From Spirochaetales bacterium Spiro_02 (GTDB lineage: Bacteria; Spirochaetota; Spirochaetia; Sphaerochaetales; Sphaerochaetaceae), in assembly GCA_001604275.1 (NCBI GenBank), contig LVBD01000008.1, forward strand, positions 1 to 64,000: a stretch of DNA of 64,000 nt. The letters run 5' to 3'. Positions 3,321 through 29,910 of this stretch are shown here, piece by piece. Within the stretch, counting starts at the first letter, position 1, and each line of letters begins with the position of its first letter. The notes under the pieces were generated by a model. It did no database searches. It was not told where the DNA came from and worked only from the letters and a program-made list of their open reading frames with translations. The position numbers and the translations under genes were made by a program.

Positions 3321-4012
3321 TGGAACATAGTATCGACGATCTGCATTTTCTTGGTTCAGGATCCGCTTTCAATCCTGAAATGGACAACACGAGCGCATGG
3401 TTCGTCCGTGGCGATATGTTCTTTCTGCTTGATTGCGGAGAAACTGTATTCGGAAAGATCTGGAATCTTCCGGAATTCACTTTTGCGACTTCCATCGCGG
3501 TGATCCTTACCCATATGCATTGCGACCATGTCGGAAGCCTGGGGACGCTGCTTTCCTATTGCAAGCTGGTGCTCGGAAAGCAGGTGACGGTTTTCTATCC
3601 TTCGGACAATCTCGAGCCGTATCTGCGTCTGGTCGGTATCGCGCCGCAGTTCTACTCGCATGTGCGCGAAGTGCCTCCCGCCTGGGGGATTGCCATTTCT
3701 GTTCATCATGTCGAGCATGCCGACGATATGGACTGCTTCGGCTACGTGATTCAGCTGGATGACCTGTCGTTCTATTACAGCGGCGATGCCGCGGATATTC
3801 CGGAGGCCGTCCTCTCTCAGTTCTTGGATGGTGCGATCGATATTATGTTCCATGATACCGGAACGAATCAGTCGGTCTTCCATTGTCCGCTGTCTCGTCT
3901 CGCACGGCGGATTCCCCCTGAATACCGCGGCCGTGTGATTTCCATGCATGTTCCGAGCAAGGAGTTCGTCGATACGATCCTCGATGCGGGATTCAAGGTG
4001 GTCGTGGTATGA
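3320..4012 (+). CDS. metallo-beta-lactamase-fold hydrolase (RNase Z/phosphodiesterase-like)
   Basis: A 230-residue MBL-fold enzyme. The metal-binding motif THMHCDHVG gives H65, H67, D69 and H70. LGSGSAF at residues 11-17 followed by NTS and LDCG is the usual start of RNase Z/PhnP-like MBL phosphodiesterases. The start is the ATG at 3320 that overlaps the stop of the permease. An upstream in-frame extension to 3014 exists but lies antisense-free inside the permease gene and is not credible. With the phosphatase that overlaps its own end, it suggests sequential hydrolysis of an imported phosphodiester; this is inference. Confidence 0.8.
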   Translation: MEHSIDDLHFLGSGSAFNPEMDNTSAWFVRGDMFFLLDCGETVFGKIWNLPEFTFATSIAVILTHMHCDHVGSLGTLLSYCKLVLGKQVTVFYPSDNLEPYLRLVGIAPQFYSHVREVPPAWGIAISVHHVEHADDMDCFGYVIQLDDLSFYYSGDAADIPEAVLSQFLDGAIDIMFHDTGTNQSVFHCPLSRLARRIPPEYRGRVISMHVPSKEFVDTILDAGFKVVVV

Positions 4013-4821
4013 ATCCATCGATGCTGACTTTGCGGCTGGCGGCTGCGGAACATATCGCCAGATGCGCCGGTGCCATGCTGCTCGAACGGGAACGGAAACG
4101 GGATTTCTCGATAGCCGAGAAGCAGGAGAACGACTATGTCACCGAGGCGGATGTCCTTTGCGAGCGGATGATCGCGGAGTATCTTTCCTGCCTGTTCCCC
4201 GGGGATGGGTTCCATGGCGAAGAGTCCGGCGATTCCGGTAGTGCCGGTCCCCGGTGGATCGTTGATCCCATCGATGGAACGATGAATTTCATGCGCGGGA
4301 TTCCGAATTACACGATCAGCATCGCTTGGGAAACCGAGCCTGGAGATCCGTTGCTCGGCGTCGTCTACCTTGTCCGCCAGGAAGAAATGTTCAGCGGTTG
4401 CCAAGGAATGGGCGCTACCTGCAATGGGATTCCGATCAATGTGTCTTCCATCGAAGATCCCGGCAATGCGCTGTTGGTCTGCGAGACTCCGCATCGGCGC
4501 AAGCAATGGGCGGACAGATACTGGGAGCTGTTTTCTTCCTTGTTCATGCAGTGCAGCGACATCAGGACGTTTGGCAGCATCGCGTTGGAACTATGCTATA
4601 TCGCCTGCGGAAGGCTGGATGCGGTGTTCGAATATTCGCTCGGCTACTGGGATATCGCGGCAGGGGCGGCGATACTGCAAGCCGCCGGCGGGCGCATCGA
4701 ACCGATTGATAGGAATCGGAGACTCGGTGACGAACCGTGCGATTTCATCGCAAGCAACGGACTCCTCCATGATTGGATCGCTCCGCAAGTCAGGGAGTTC
4801 GGAACGATCAGAAACGGCTGA
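4009..4821 (+). CDS. inositol monophosphatase family protein
   Basis: Mg-dependent phosphatase of the IMPase/SuhB/CysQ superfamily, 270 residues. Visible motifs are GEES at residues 70-73 (metal ligands), DPIDGT at 86-91 (metal ligands and nucleophilic water site) and YWDIAAGAAI near residue 210. Start ATG at 4009 overlaps the preceding stop (ATGA). It could dephosphorylate inositol phosphate, a sugar phosphate or PAP; the operon with an ABC importer and an MBL hydrolase favours a sugar or polyol phosphate. It ends only two bases from the convergent gntR gene. Confidence 0.88.
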   Translation: MNPSMLTLRLAAAEHIARCAGAMLLERERKRDFSIAEKQENDYVTEADVLCERMIAEYLSCLFPGDGFHGEESGDSGSAGPRWIVDPIDGTMNFMRGIPNYTISIAWETEPGDPLLGVVYLVRQEEMFSGCQGMGATCNGIPINVSSIEDPGNALLVCETPHRRKQWADRYWELFSSLFMQCSDIRTFGSIALELCYIACGRLDAVFEYSLGYWDIAAGAAILQAAGGRIEPIDRNRRLGDEPCDFIASNGLLHDWIAPQVREFGTIRNG

Positions 4822-4823
4822 GC

Positions 4824-5585
4824 CTATTTCCCGATCGGCTGGATCGTATCGAGGAAGTTTTCGGTAAAGTCCTCTTTCGTCCGGATCTTTTGCGGAATCG
4901 AGGTATCGTTCGCGGTCGTGAACAGGGCGGGGTATGCCGCCACCAGTGTCGTGATCTCCGTCGTGATTCTGGCAAGATGCTGCTCCTCGATCTGGAGGAC
5001 TGCGTCGAGATTCCTGTCGCGCAGGAAACGGACGATATCCCGATGGTTTTGCAGAACGAATTCCTGGGTAGTCGCTATGGCCTTTTCCGCAAGCAACCTG
5101 ACCCGATACTCATTGGCTGAATACCGGGTGCCGATTTCCCAGCAATACTCCTTGTGTATGCATCTGAATATCTGAAAATGGAACTGGGAGTCCCAGTAGA
5201 GGGTGTCGATGTATCTGTTTTCCTTGAATGCGAGCTCATGTTCCTTGATGCAGGTCTCCATTGTCGAAAGATACGATTCGTCATAATTGTAGAACATTTC
5301 CCGTATGGCGCTTAGTTCAAGCGCTTTGCGGATGAACCGTTCGTCTTCCGTCCGCTTGATATCGATCAGCGATACTCGCGACCCGCTTTTCGGAAACACA
5401 TCGATCAGATTCTCGTTCGAGAGCTTCAGGATCGCGTCATGGACCGGGGTGCGGCTCACTTGCAAAGCATCCGCCAACGTGGCTACGCTGATAGGTTTTC
5501 CCGGTCTGAATTCAAGATGCAAGATCTTGTTCTTGATCGTCGTGTACACCGTGTCGAAAATGGATGATTCCTTCCTGCTCGTCAT
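4824..5585 (-). CDS. GntR-family transcriptional regulator, FCD subfamily
   Basis: Probable repressor of about 253 residues, counting from the ATG at 5585 (MTSRKESSIFDTVYTTIKNK). An upstream in-frame ATG at 5687 is possible but adds an unusual N-terminus. The winged helix-turn-helix contains VATLADALQVSRTPVHDAIL, and the C-terminal half is the all-helical FCD ligand domain with the acidic/histidine pattern expected for sugar-acid sensors. It is the last gene of a minus-strand operon behind two alcohol dehydrogenases, so it probably autoregulates that operon and may control the divergent TRAP genes. Candidate operators lie at 7804-7852. Confidence 0.88.
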   Translation of the reverse strand: MTSRKESSIFDTVYTTIKNKILHLEFRPGKPISVATLADALQVSRTPVHDAILKLSNENLIDVFPKSGSRVSLIDIKRTEDERFIRKALELSAIREMFYNYDESYLSTMETCIKEHELAFKENRYIDTLYWDSQFHFQIFRCIHKEYCWEIGTRYSANEYRVRLLAEKAIATTQEFVLQNHRDIVRFLRDRNLDAVLQIEEQHLARITTEITTLVAAYPALFTTANDTSIPQKIRTKEDFTENFLDTIQPIGK

Positions 5586-5691
5586 ACTGATATGCCTGTC
5601 CTGCCTTTCATTGTGGATTTTCTCACATTGCAAGGCAAAACTCAACGATGAATCGTCGGAAACGGGAATAAAAGGAAATGACGACATCGCA

Positions 5692-6732
5692 CTAGCTCAA
5701 AGATTCATCAACGAGTATGACCACTTTCATGTATTTGTCTGGTCTTCGCTCGATGTCCTGGATGATTCGCGGAGCTTGATCAAGGTCGACCGTCTCGGTC
5801 AGGATCCTGGTCATGTCGACCTGTTTCGTCCTGATCAGTTCTAGGGCTTCCTGGAACTCTCCCGCGCTTGTGCGGGCGCCGCAGATATCGAGTTCCTTTT
5901 TCGTGATCATGTCGGTGGGAAGGCTCGTTTCCCGTTTCGGCCATCCTGTGAGGACGATCCGTCCTGCGTTGGACGCATAGTCGAGCGTGTTCCTGATCGC
6001 CACGTTCGCACCGGAACATTCGAGGACTTGCTGGGCCATGGTGCCTCCGGTAATGGCGCGGATCGCCTCCGATGGGTCTTCTTTCGTAGAGTTGACGACA
6101 TGCTCGATCCCCAGTCTTCGCGCGAAATCCAATCGTTCCTGGACGATGTCGATCAGGATCGCATGCGCTTTGTATCCCTGCGCGACCAGCCCTGCTACCA
6201 GTCCTATCGGTCCCGCTCCGATCACCGCGCAGTACTCGCCGGCCTGCAAGCGTCCTCTGTGGATTCCGTGGAGGGAGATCGTCAGTGGCTCCGCCATGGC
6301 AGCCTGGACATAGGAAAGTTCATCCGGGATGCGCACGAGCAGGTTCGTTGGGTGGGCGAAATACTCCGCCATGCCTCCATCCACATGGACTCCAAGCACC
6401 TGGAGGTGTTCGCAGCAGTTCGTGCGGCCGATCGAACAGGGATAGCAGGCGCCGCAATAGCGATAAGGATCGACCACCACGCGGTCTCCGACCTTGATTC
6501 CGTGCGTATCGCCGGGTCCCAACGCGACCACTTTTCCGGCAAGTTCATGGCCGATGAGCCGAGGGTATCGTATCAGACTGTTGGTGCCCCTAAAGGCTCC
6601 GATATCGCTGCCGCAGATGCCTGCCGCGCCTATTTTGATCAACGCTTCGTTTTCCCTGGGATGCGGGATCTCCGTCGTCACGCAGGTTATGTCGAACGGT
6701 TGCGCGAGCCTGATCGCTTTCATGGTCGCCAT
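5692..6732 (-). CDS. zinc-dependent alcohol dehydrogenase (MDR family)
   Basis: A 346-residue medium-chain dehydrogenase/reductase of the sorbitol/threonine/L-idonate dehydrogenase type. Visible are the catalytic zinc region AAGICGSDIGAFRG and IGHELAG, the four-cysteine structural zinc loop (CGACYPCSIGRTNCC) and the NAD-binding GAGPIGLVAG motif. It oxidises a secondary alcohol of a polyol or aldonate. It is the second gene of the operon, 16 bp from its paralogue, and five bp ahead of the gntR upstream ATG. The co-located TRAP transporter suggests a sugar acid as substrate. Confidence 0.9.
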   Translation of the reverse strand: MATMKAIRLAQPFDITCVTTEIPHPRENEALIKIGAAGICGSDIGAFRGTNSLIRYPRLIGHELAGKVVALGPGDTHGIKVGDRVVVDPYRYCGACYPCSIGRTNCCEHLQVLGVHVDGGMAEYFAHPTNLLVRIPDELSYVQAAMAEPLTISLHGIHRGRLQAGEYCAVIGAGPIGLVAGLVAQGYKAHAILIDIVQERLDFARRLGIEHVVNSTKEDPSEAIRAITGGTMAQQVLECSGANVAIRNTLDYASNAGRIVLTGWPKRETSLPTDMITKKELDICGARTSAGEFQEALELIRTKQVDMTRILTETVDLDQAPRIIQDIERRPDKYMKVVILVDESLS

Positions 6733-6748
6733 ATGGGTGCCTCCTGCA

Positions 6749-7771
6749 TTAGAAATCGAACGTAAGCACGATTTTCCTGATGGAAGGATCGTGGCTGTCT
6801 ATGAAATCGAACGCTTGCTGCGCCTGCGTAAGCTGGAACGTATGGGAACACGAACCGGTAAGATCCAGTTTCCCTTCTTCGATCAGTCTGATCGCTTCCC
6901 CGAACATTTTGTTCTGGAGCCGGGAACCGCGGATGTCCAGCTCCTTGGACGTGACCGAAAACTGGGTGACTTGCGATGGTGAAATCGAAAAGCCCATCGT
7001 GATCACTCTTCCGGCATTACCGGTCGCCTGCAGCAGGGTGGGAAGGCTTGTGGTGTTGCAGACCGCATCGATCGATACCGTAGCGCCATGTCCTGCTGTA
7101 TATTCGAGGACTTTCGTCTGCAGATCCTCCTGGAGTACGTTGATCGTGTGCGTCGCCCCGTTTTCCCTGGCGATCGCAAGTTTTTCGTCGTTGATGTCCG
7201 ATACGATGATATGGTCGCAATGCAGCCGTGCGATCTTGAGGATCGAAGACCCCAGCGCTCCGCAACCGAACAGCAGCAGCATGTCGTCGCGCTCCAGCTG
7301 GGCACGGGAGCTGGCCTGGATGGCAATGGTGGTAGGTTCTATCATGACGGCATCGGTATCGGATATCGAATCGGGGAGGAGATAGCAGTCGGATTCGGGA
7401 ACTGCGATGTATTGGCGATACCCGCCGTCGATATGGACGCCTCTCACTTTCAAGTTGTCGCAGACGTTTCCCCTCCCTTTCCGGCATGGGTAGCAATGTC
7501 CGCAGCTTGTGACTTGATTGATGATGACTCGATCTCCCTCCTTGAGACGGGTGGCACCGGAACCTGTTTCAACGACCTGTCCGACCATTTCGTGCCCGAT
7601 GATCCTCGGATAGGTCGCTGCTGCGTTCGTCCCGTGATAGATGCCCACATCAGAACCGCAGATTCCGGCCGCGGTCATCCTGACAAGTATGTTATCCCGT
7701 TCCGAGAGAACGGGGATTTCCGTATCGATGATTCTCAGGTCGTTCGGTCGTACGATTTGAACAGCTTTCAT
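6749..7771 (-). CDS. zinc-dependent alcohol dehydrogenase, paralogue of the neighbour
   Basis: A 340-residue MDR dehydrogenase with AAGICGSDVGIYHG, IGHEMVG, the structural zinc cysteines in CGHCYPCRKGRGNVC, and a nucleotide loop FGCGALGSS in which the usual GxGxxG is kept. It shares the same architecture as the next gene, so the two probably arose by duplication and act on successive or epimeric substrates, as pairs of such enzymes do in idonate/galactonate-type pathways. First gene of the operon; the promoter is at 7842-7871. Confidence 0.9.
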   Translation of the reverse strand: MKAVQIVRPNDLRIIDTEIPVLSERDNILVRMTAAGICGSDVGIYHGTNAAATYPRIIGHEMVGQVVETGSGATRLKEGDRVIINQVTSCGHCYPCRKGRGNVCDNLKVRGVHIDGGYRQYIAVPESDCYLLPDSISDTDAVMIEPTTIAIQASSRAQLERDDMLLLFGCGALGSSILKIARLHCDHIIVSDINDEKLAIARENGATHTINVLQEDLQTKVLEYTAGHGATVSIDAVCNTTSLPTLLQATGNAGRVITMGFSISPSQVTQFSVTSKELDIRGSRLQNKMFGEAIRLIEEGKLDLTGSCSHTFQLTQAQQAFDFIDSHDPSIRKIVLTFDF

Positions 7772-29682: not shown

Positions 29683-29714
29683 CAGGGAGGCTCTCCGGCC
29701 TTCCTGTTTTTTTG
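29683..29714 (+). terminator. rho-independent terminator after CHR pair
   Basis: CAGGGAGGC (29683-29691) pairs with GCCTTCCTG (29698-29706) with one G-U pair around a six-base loop, followed directly by eight T residues. Confidence 0.85.
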
Positions 29715-29725
29715 TGTGATACTGC

Positions 29726-29780
29726 TTGCGTCGTCTGTGTTTTAGGTGTATCATATAAATGTAATTAGGTATGCCTAAAT
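29726..29780 (+). promoter_or_regulatory. promoter with DtxR/MntR-like operator
   Basis: TTGCGT (29726-29731), 17 bp, TATCAT (29749-29754) make a good sigma70 promoter. Overlapping the expected start of transcription is the dyad TTAGGTATGCCTAA (29765-29778), extended to AATTAGG/CCTAAAT (29763-29780). This resembles the metal-dependent DtxR/IdeR/MntR operators (TTAGGnnnnCCTAA). Binding by such a regulator is inferred. Confidence 0.6.
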
Positions 29781-29805
29781 ATAAATCGCCGACAGGAGGC
29801 CGTGT

Positions 29806-29910
29806 ATGGACATGTTCACCAGACGCTTGCTCATGCGGAAACTGCCGATACTGGTAGCGTCGGCGCTCGCCTTGGCGGCTGCGATTCTCGTCCGTTTCTT
29901 CGTAGGCTGA
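29806..29910 (+). CDS. 34-residue single-span membrane peptide
   Basis: A short gene with its own promoter, a strong ribosome binding site (CAGGAGG, 29793-29799) and an ATG seven bases later. The 34-residue product has a basic N-terminus (RR at 6-7, RK at 11-12), then one hydrophobic helix rich in Ala, Leu and Val (about residues 13-28), then R and FFVG at the end. It follows a terminator and a DtxR-like operator, so it is probably expressed alone under metal or iron limitation. I do not recognise a family. It could be a small regulator of a metal transporter, but nothing adjacent shows its partner. Confidence 0.6.
   Translation: MDMFTRRLLMRKLPILVASALALAAAILVRFFVG

Follow-up and report, generated by a model that had tools for sequence, protein, structure and literature searches.

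The window analysed here, 64,000 nucleotides of DNA from Spirochaetales bacterium Spiro_02, carries on the + strand at 29806-29910 a gene of 34 codons, MDMFTRRLLMRKLPILVASALALAAAILVRFFVG, whose sequence and surroundings point to a real, unnamed small protein produced at metal shortage. The reading we favour, at a probability of roughly 0.6, is that of a stand-alone gene, in a metal-starvation regulon governed by a ScaR/SloR-type DtxR regulator, which encodes a single-helix membrane protein that adjusts metal transport. The gene, its promoter, an operator in common with a feoA-feoB-dtxR operon of the same genome, its synteny in Clostridia and its conservation at the protein level are described in turn.

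Transcription unit

An intrinsic terminator, CAGGGAGGCTCTCCGGCCTTCCTG followed by T7 (29683-29713, + strand; a 10-pair stem, then the T run), ends the upstream gene pair, two half-size chromate transporters (Chromate_transp, Pfam PF02417), and isolates the peptide unit from it. By direct reading, the -35 element is TTGCGT (29726-29731, +) and the -10 element TATCAT (29749-29754, +), with a spacer of 17 bp. A TTAGG half-site (29742-29746, +) lies within that spacer, 23 bp 5' of a dyad, TTAGGTATGCCTAA, at 29765-29778. The dyad, an unstranded feature, is the predicted DtxR-family operator and is positioned over the expected start site or just 3' of it. The Shine-Dalgarno sequence CAGGAGG (29793-29799, +) is 6 bp 5' of the ATG at 29806, and the frame closes with TGA at 29908-29910. 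The terminator, promoter, dyad, ribosome binding site and 34-codon frame of the original prediction are therefore all in place. TTGCGT-17-TATCAT was missing from the list returned by a generic promoter scan, TTGCGT being too distant from consensus, and the promoter call is supported by the conservation of its spacing in the promoters of relatives.

No terminator was found 3' of the peptide frame and no Rfam match in the window. Both observations bear on the notion that the unit encodes a metal-responsive small RNA of the RyhB kind, in which the open reading frame is incidental or secondary. A short unit with a metal-type operator would suit such an RNA, and MntS was itself at first thought to be a possible small RNA (PMC4361602), but conservation here is at the level of the protein, and we regard this explanation as highly improbable.

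Operator and regulator

When up to one mismatch was allowed, a search of the complete 2.61-Mb genome for TTAGGNNNNCCTAA (TTAGG-N4-CCTAA) gave five sites, compared to 87 for a reversed control pattern, and the only exact copy is the site before the peptide gene. Two of the five sites are in tandem, 22 bp apart, directly behind the promoter (TTGACA-17-TAGACT) of the feoA-feoB-dtxR operon on contig C25; the remaining two lie 5' of another DtxR-like gene and close to an Lrp-like gene, respectively. A search for the same dyad before feo genes had been proposed as a check, and the tandem pair is what it returned. This pair, and the presence of the dyad 5' of related dtxR genes (below), lend strong support to the call of a DtxR/MntR-type operator. 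Like the DtxR/IdeR operators, the site is built of TTAGG...CCTAA half-sites in inverted order, but there are 4 bp between its half-sites, whereas the sites of C. diphtheriae are 19 bp long with 9 bp between half-sites (PMC524172).

Two other explanations for the pattern were considered and rejected. An operator common to the organism's family can be dismissed since the sites found in the family are in unrelated contexts (within genes, before gdhA, at rpmI) and none is before feo. Contamination is contradicted by a tetranucleotide correlation of 0.94-0.96 between the feo contig and the window.

Three DtxR-family genes in the genome score above the Pfam cut-off. The other two adjoin feoAB and feoB and go with a different site, GTTAG-N6-CTAAC, and so the peptide was assigned to the C25 regulator. 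That protein, encoded at 27918-28580 of C25, has the DNA-binding and metal-binding DtxR domains and a FeoA-like domain, and the solved structures nearest to it are those of the metalloregulators ScaR and SloR. At one metal-ligand column it has His, in contrast to Glu in the majority of clostridial homologues and Cys in the archaeal ones; its metal can therefore not be read from the sequence. In a tree which took in only six recovered relatives from the host's class, the C25 regulator is next to L051 in a clostridial group (support 100/100), apart from the host-class proteins. Its identity to clostridial matches is about 52%, and at most about 40% to those of the host's class. The grouping and these identities together suggest that the regulator was acquired by horizontal transfer.

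Related loci in Clostridia

A scan of genome contigs with the C25 DtxR gave 19 loci, in Clostridia and archaea. TTAGG-N4-CCTAA, with all ten specified bases, is 5' of dtxR in 17 of the 18 loci for which upstream DNA was present, from Clostridia to archaea. In five clostridial loci (L048, L050, L052, L054 and L055) a homologue of the peptide, 34-35 codons long and 32-47% identical to that of the window, is encoded between the operator and dtxR; the L050 homologue has 34 codons if read from the shared ATG. Genes for a metal ABC transporter (lipoprotein, ATPase and two permeases) are found 3' of dtxR in four of these loci, and the fifth, L050, has the ATPase and permeases with a longer open reading frame at the lipoprotein position. 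Five further Lacrimispora species have a homologue, for a total of ten, and (C)AGGAGG recurs as the Shine-Dalgarno sequence in several of the Lacrimispora genes. The original prediction had called the peptide an orphan and had named a lack of conservation in relatives among the findings that would refute it. The ten homologues, all in Clostridia and none in the host's own family or class, show that the peptide is conserved and is no orphan.

The promoters are also related. In an ungapped alignment, the window and the clostridial promoters have in common TTGC at the -35 position, the TTAGG half-site, the -10 box and the dyad; TTGC is found in most clostridial dtxR promoters at an equal distance to the dyad, and TATCAT is aligned with their TATAAT. 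The half-site is at -23 from the dyad in the window and in seven of the nine clostridial loci compared, the exceptions being L050 (-24) and L051 (-22). Outside the dyad, 22-25 of 39 positions are identical in seven loci, compared to 19 or fewer in shifted controls; the identities of L050 and L051 are no higher than those controls.

In Clostridia the peptide gene is the first after the operator in a dtxR-ABC transporter operon; in the window the operator is present and dtxR is elsewhere. The downstream neighbours here are a gene for a LacI-type regulator (30072), phosphofructokinase and then a NagB-like frame, which was assigned by sequence and has no Pfam hit at 1e-5. This arrangement bears on whether the peptide is simply a translated leader for its 3' neighbour, whose expression it would tune in cis (dtxR for Clostridia and the LacI-type gene for the window), in which case its amino acids would hardly matter. 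The position directly before dtxR in Clostridia would fit, and with no terminator behind the frame the transcript may reach the LacI-type gene. However, the LacI-type gene is served by a better promoter of its own (TTGACC-16-TATCAT), very similar dtxR operons at L049, L053 and L057 have no peptide and yet retain the same promoter, and the amino acids are conserved although silent sites are nearly saturated. Because the gene is apart from dtxR and its downstream neighbour is wholly unlike that in Clostridia, the peptide is unlikely to be a leader and nothing else.

Some minor features of these loci were seen. Between 29940 and 29990 of the window there is a perfect palindrome, AATCCAAAATTTTGGATT, and a second sequence, TTTGGTTGACCAAA, overlaps the -35 element of the LacI-type gene; both may be operators through which the LacI-PFK-NagB-like operon is autoregulated. 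In L052, L054, L055 and L105-L108 a second DtxR/MarR-like regulator gene is divergent from the peptide-dtxR operon, and a large palindrome-like stretch, TTAGGGGAGGGAAA...TTTCCCTTGGCTAA, lies between the two. In L053 the gap of 230 bp that separates the operator from dtxR (4767-5001) contains a stretch, ATGCATACT..., resembling a remnant of the peptide gene with a frameshift.

Peptide sequence and structure

The window peptide has the traits of the family, ie 34-35 residues, an MD start, an RL(F/L)xRK-like motif and one helix. Six residues (M1, L8, K12, L16, A20 and L23) are invariant in the 11 aligned sequences. A profile built from the clostridial homologues alone, with the window peptide left out, gave that peptide 25 bits, whereas the runner-up among 2,942 reading frames reached 7.3, and none of about 10,000 shuffles, either full or with the hydropathy pattern kept, equalled its score. 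With a dyad that is the genome's sole exact copy of a pattern depleted relative to its control, these scores establish that the observed unit is not due to chance.

Comparisons of the window gene with its relatives gave pN/pS values of 0.36-0.57, silent sites being almost saturated, and the GC3 of the gene is 0.76, at the host's G+C, compared to 0.29-0.41 in Clostridia. By these measures the gene has long been kept as a protein. No Pfam or NCBIfam model covers the peptide at the curated cut-off, and no description of it was found in the literature.

The character of a basic, single-helix membrane peptide given to it by the original prediction was upheld by hydropathy and by AlphaFold2, which predicted a single helix from residue 3 to 33; the net charge is +4. 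Basic single-helix peptides may have other roles, for example as membrane toxins. By its size, charge and helix this one could be a membrane-damaging peptide resembling a type I toxin, expressed in starvation to slow growth, but a shallow look identified neither an antisense RNA nor an antitoxin, and in Clostridia the close linkage of the peptide gene to those of a metalloregulator and metal transporters makes such a role very unlikely. A further possibility, unproven, is that the peptide derives from the signal sequence of the metal-binding lipoprotein encoded in the operon. Only the signal peptide of the Tissierellia locus L058 is similar (15 bits, with 5 of 9,998 shuffles equally high), and unrelated membrane N-termini among the weak profile hits score as high. 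Such an origin is claimed for MntS in the title of Wright et al. (2023), as cited in PMC11539335.

Distribution

A search of 150 relatives with the peptide alone gave chance matches only. Within the host's class, 296 other genomes were searched and the peptide was found in none of them; the weak matches there (E at least 0.004) are partial and mostly within longer frames. In a sample of the class Clostridia it was found in one genome of 391, the query genome itself, together with two weaker matches in longer frames; in Lacrimispora, 6 of 25 genomes have it. No relatives were found in plasmids and phages. Given this patchy occurrence and the several very similar dtxR operons which do without it, the peptide gene is accessory and dispensable.

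Its absence from the rest of the class, taken with the clostridial grouping of the feo-linked regulator, would also suit a relic of horizontal transfer, ie a clostridial-type piece of operator, peptide and dtxR which was acquired and broken up, leaving a peptide unit now without function. The third codon positions are already at host composition, however, and decay would be expected over such a time scale, yet the frame, Shine-Dalgarno sequence, promoter, half-site and operator are all intact. We consider this quite unlikely.

Discussion

The reading of a stand-alone, metal-regulated membrane protein gene would work as follows. When metal is plentiful, metal-loaded C25 DtxR would occupy TTAGG-N4-CCTAA over the start site and keep the gene off. 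When metal is low the repressor would be released, and the peptide would be produced along with FeoAB. It would then insert in the membrane, most likely with its basic N-terminus in the cytoplasm, and would adjust metal transport, most likely by binding to a transporter so as to help an importer or block an exporter, as the analogies below suggest. The linked transporter differs between the two settings, being a metal ABC system in Clostridia and FeoAB, in trans, in the window genome.

To our knowledge, very few of the small proteins involved in the metal balance of bacteria have been assigned a role. MntS of E. coli, a protein of 42 residues induced at low manganese, is a proposed inhibitor of the MntP exporter and has been reported only in enterics possessing MntP (PMC4361602). 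The peptide resembles it in being small, in its presumed induction on release of a metal-loaded repressor and in its association, in Clostridia, with a regulator of the manganese type and with metal transporter genes. It is set apart from MntS, as described, by a clear single membrane helix, by its occurrence in Clostridia and one unrelated genome and by its place at the beginning of the regulator's own operon in Clostridia. MgtS of E. coli, as cited in PMC11539335, is a 31-residue membrane protein which acts on magnesium transport. It is likewise tiny and in the membrane, and action on a transporter is a plausible mode for the peptide too; metal and regulator differ. MntS and MgtS may serve as models of possible action and not as relatives.

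A broader reading is put forward tentatively. The unnamed 34-residue protein may directly control the metal transporter or the metalloregulator in Clostridia, as part of a transferable regulator-peptide module. Its promoter and DtxR would have moved along with it into an unrelated bacterium, where the regulator now runs FeoAB and the peptide has been kept in trans.

The homologues form a conserved family of small proteins which occurs in cultured Clostridia, is linked to a named regulator and a metal transporter and has been missed by Pfam and NCBIfam; the family is open to experiment in a culturable host. The case also demonstrates that one exact operator site, seen in raw DNA, can serve to uncover an actual small gene along with its regulon.

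Other feo loci of the genome

Two further feo loci, L110 (C38) at 5703-6995 and L109 (C71) at 3510-6379, each adjoin their own DtxR-like gene, with four GTTAG-N6-CTAAC dyads at L110 and one at L109. The one genome has three feo systems and two operator classes. GTTAG-N6-CTAAC is also present 5' of an AhpC/peroxiredoxin-like gene (L025:13258), and a small open reading frame, MESILDLLGIGLTSPLEGG..., is located between feoB and dtxR at about 11836-11920 of L025.
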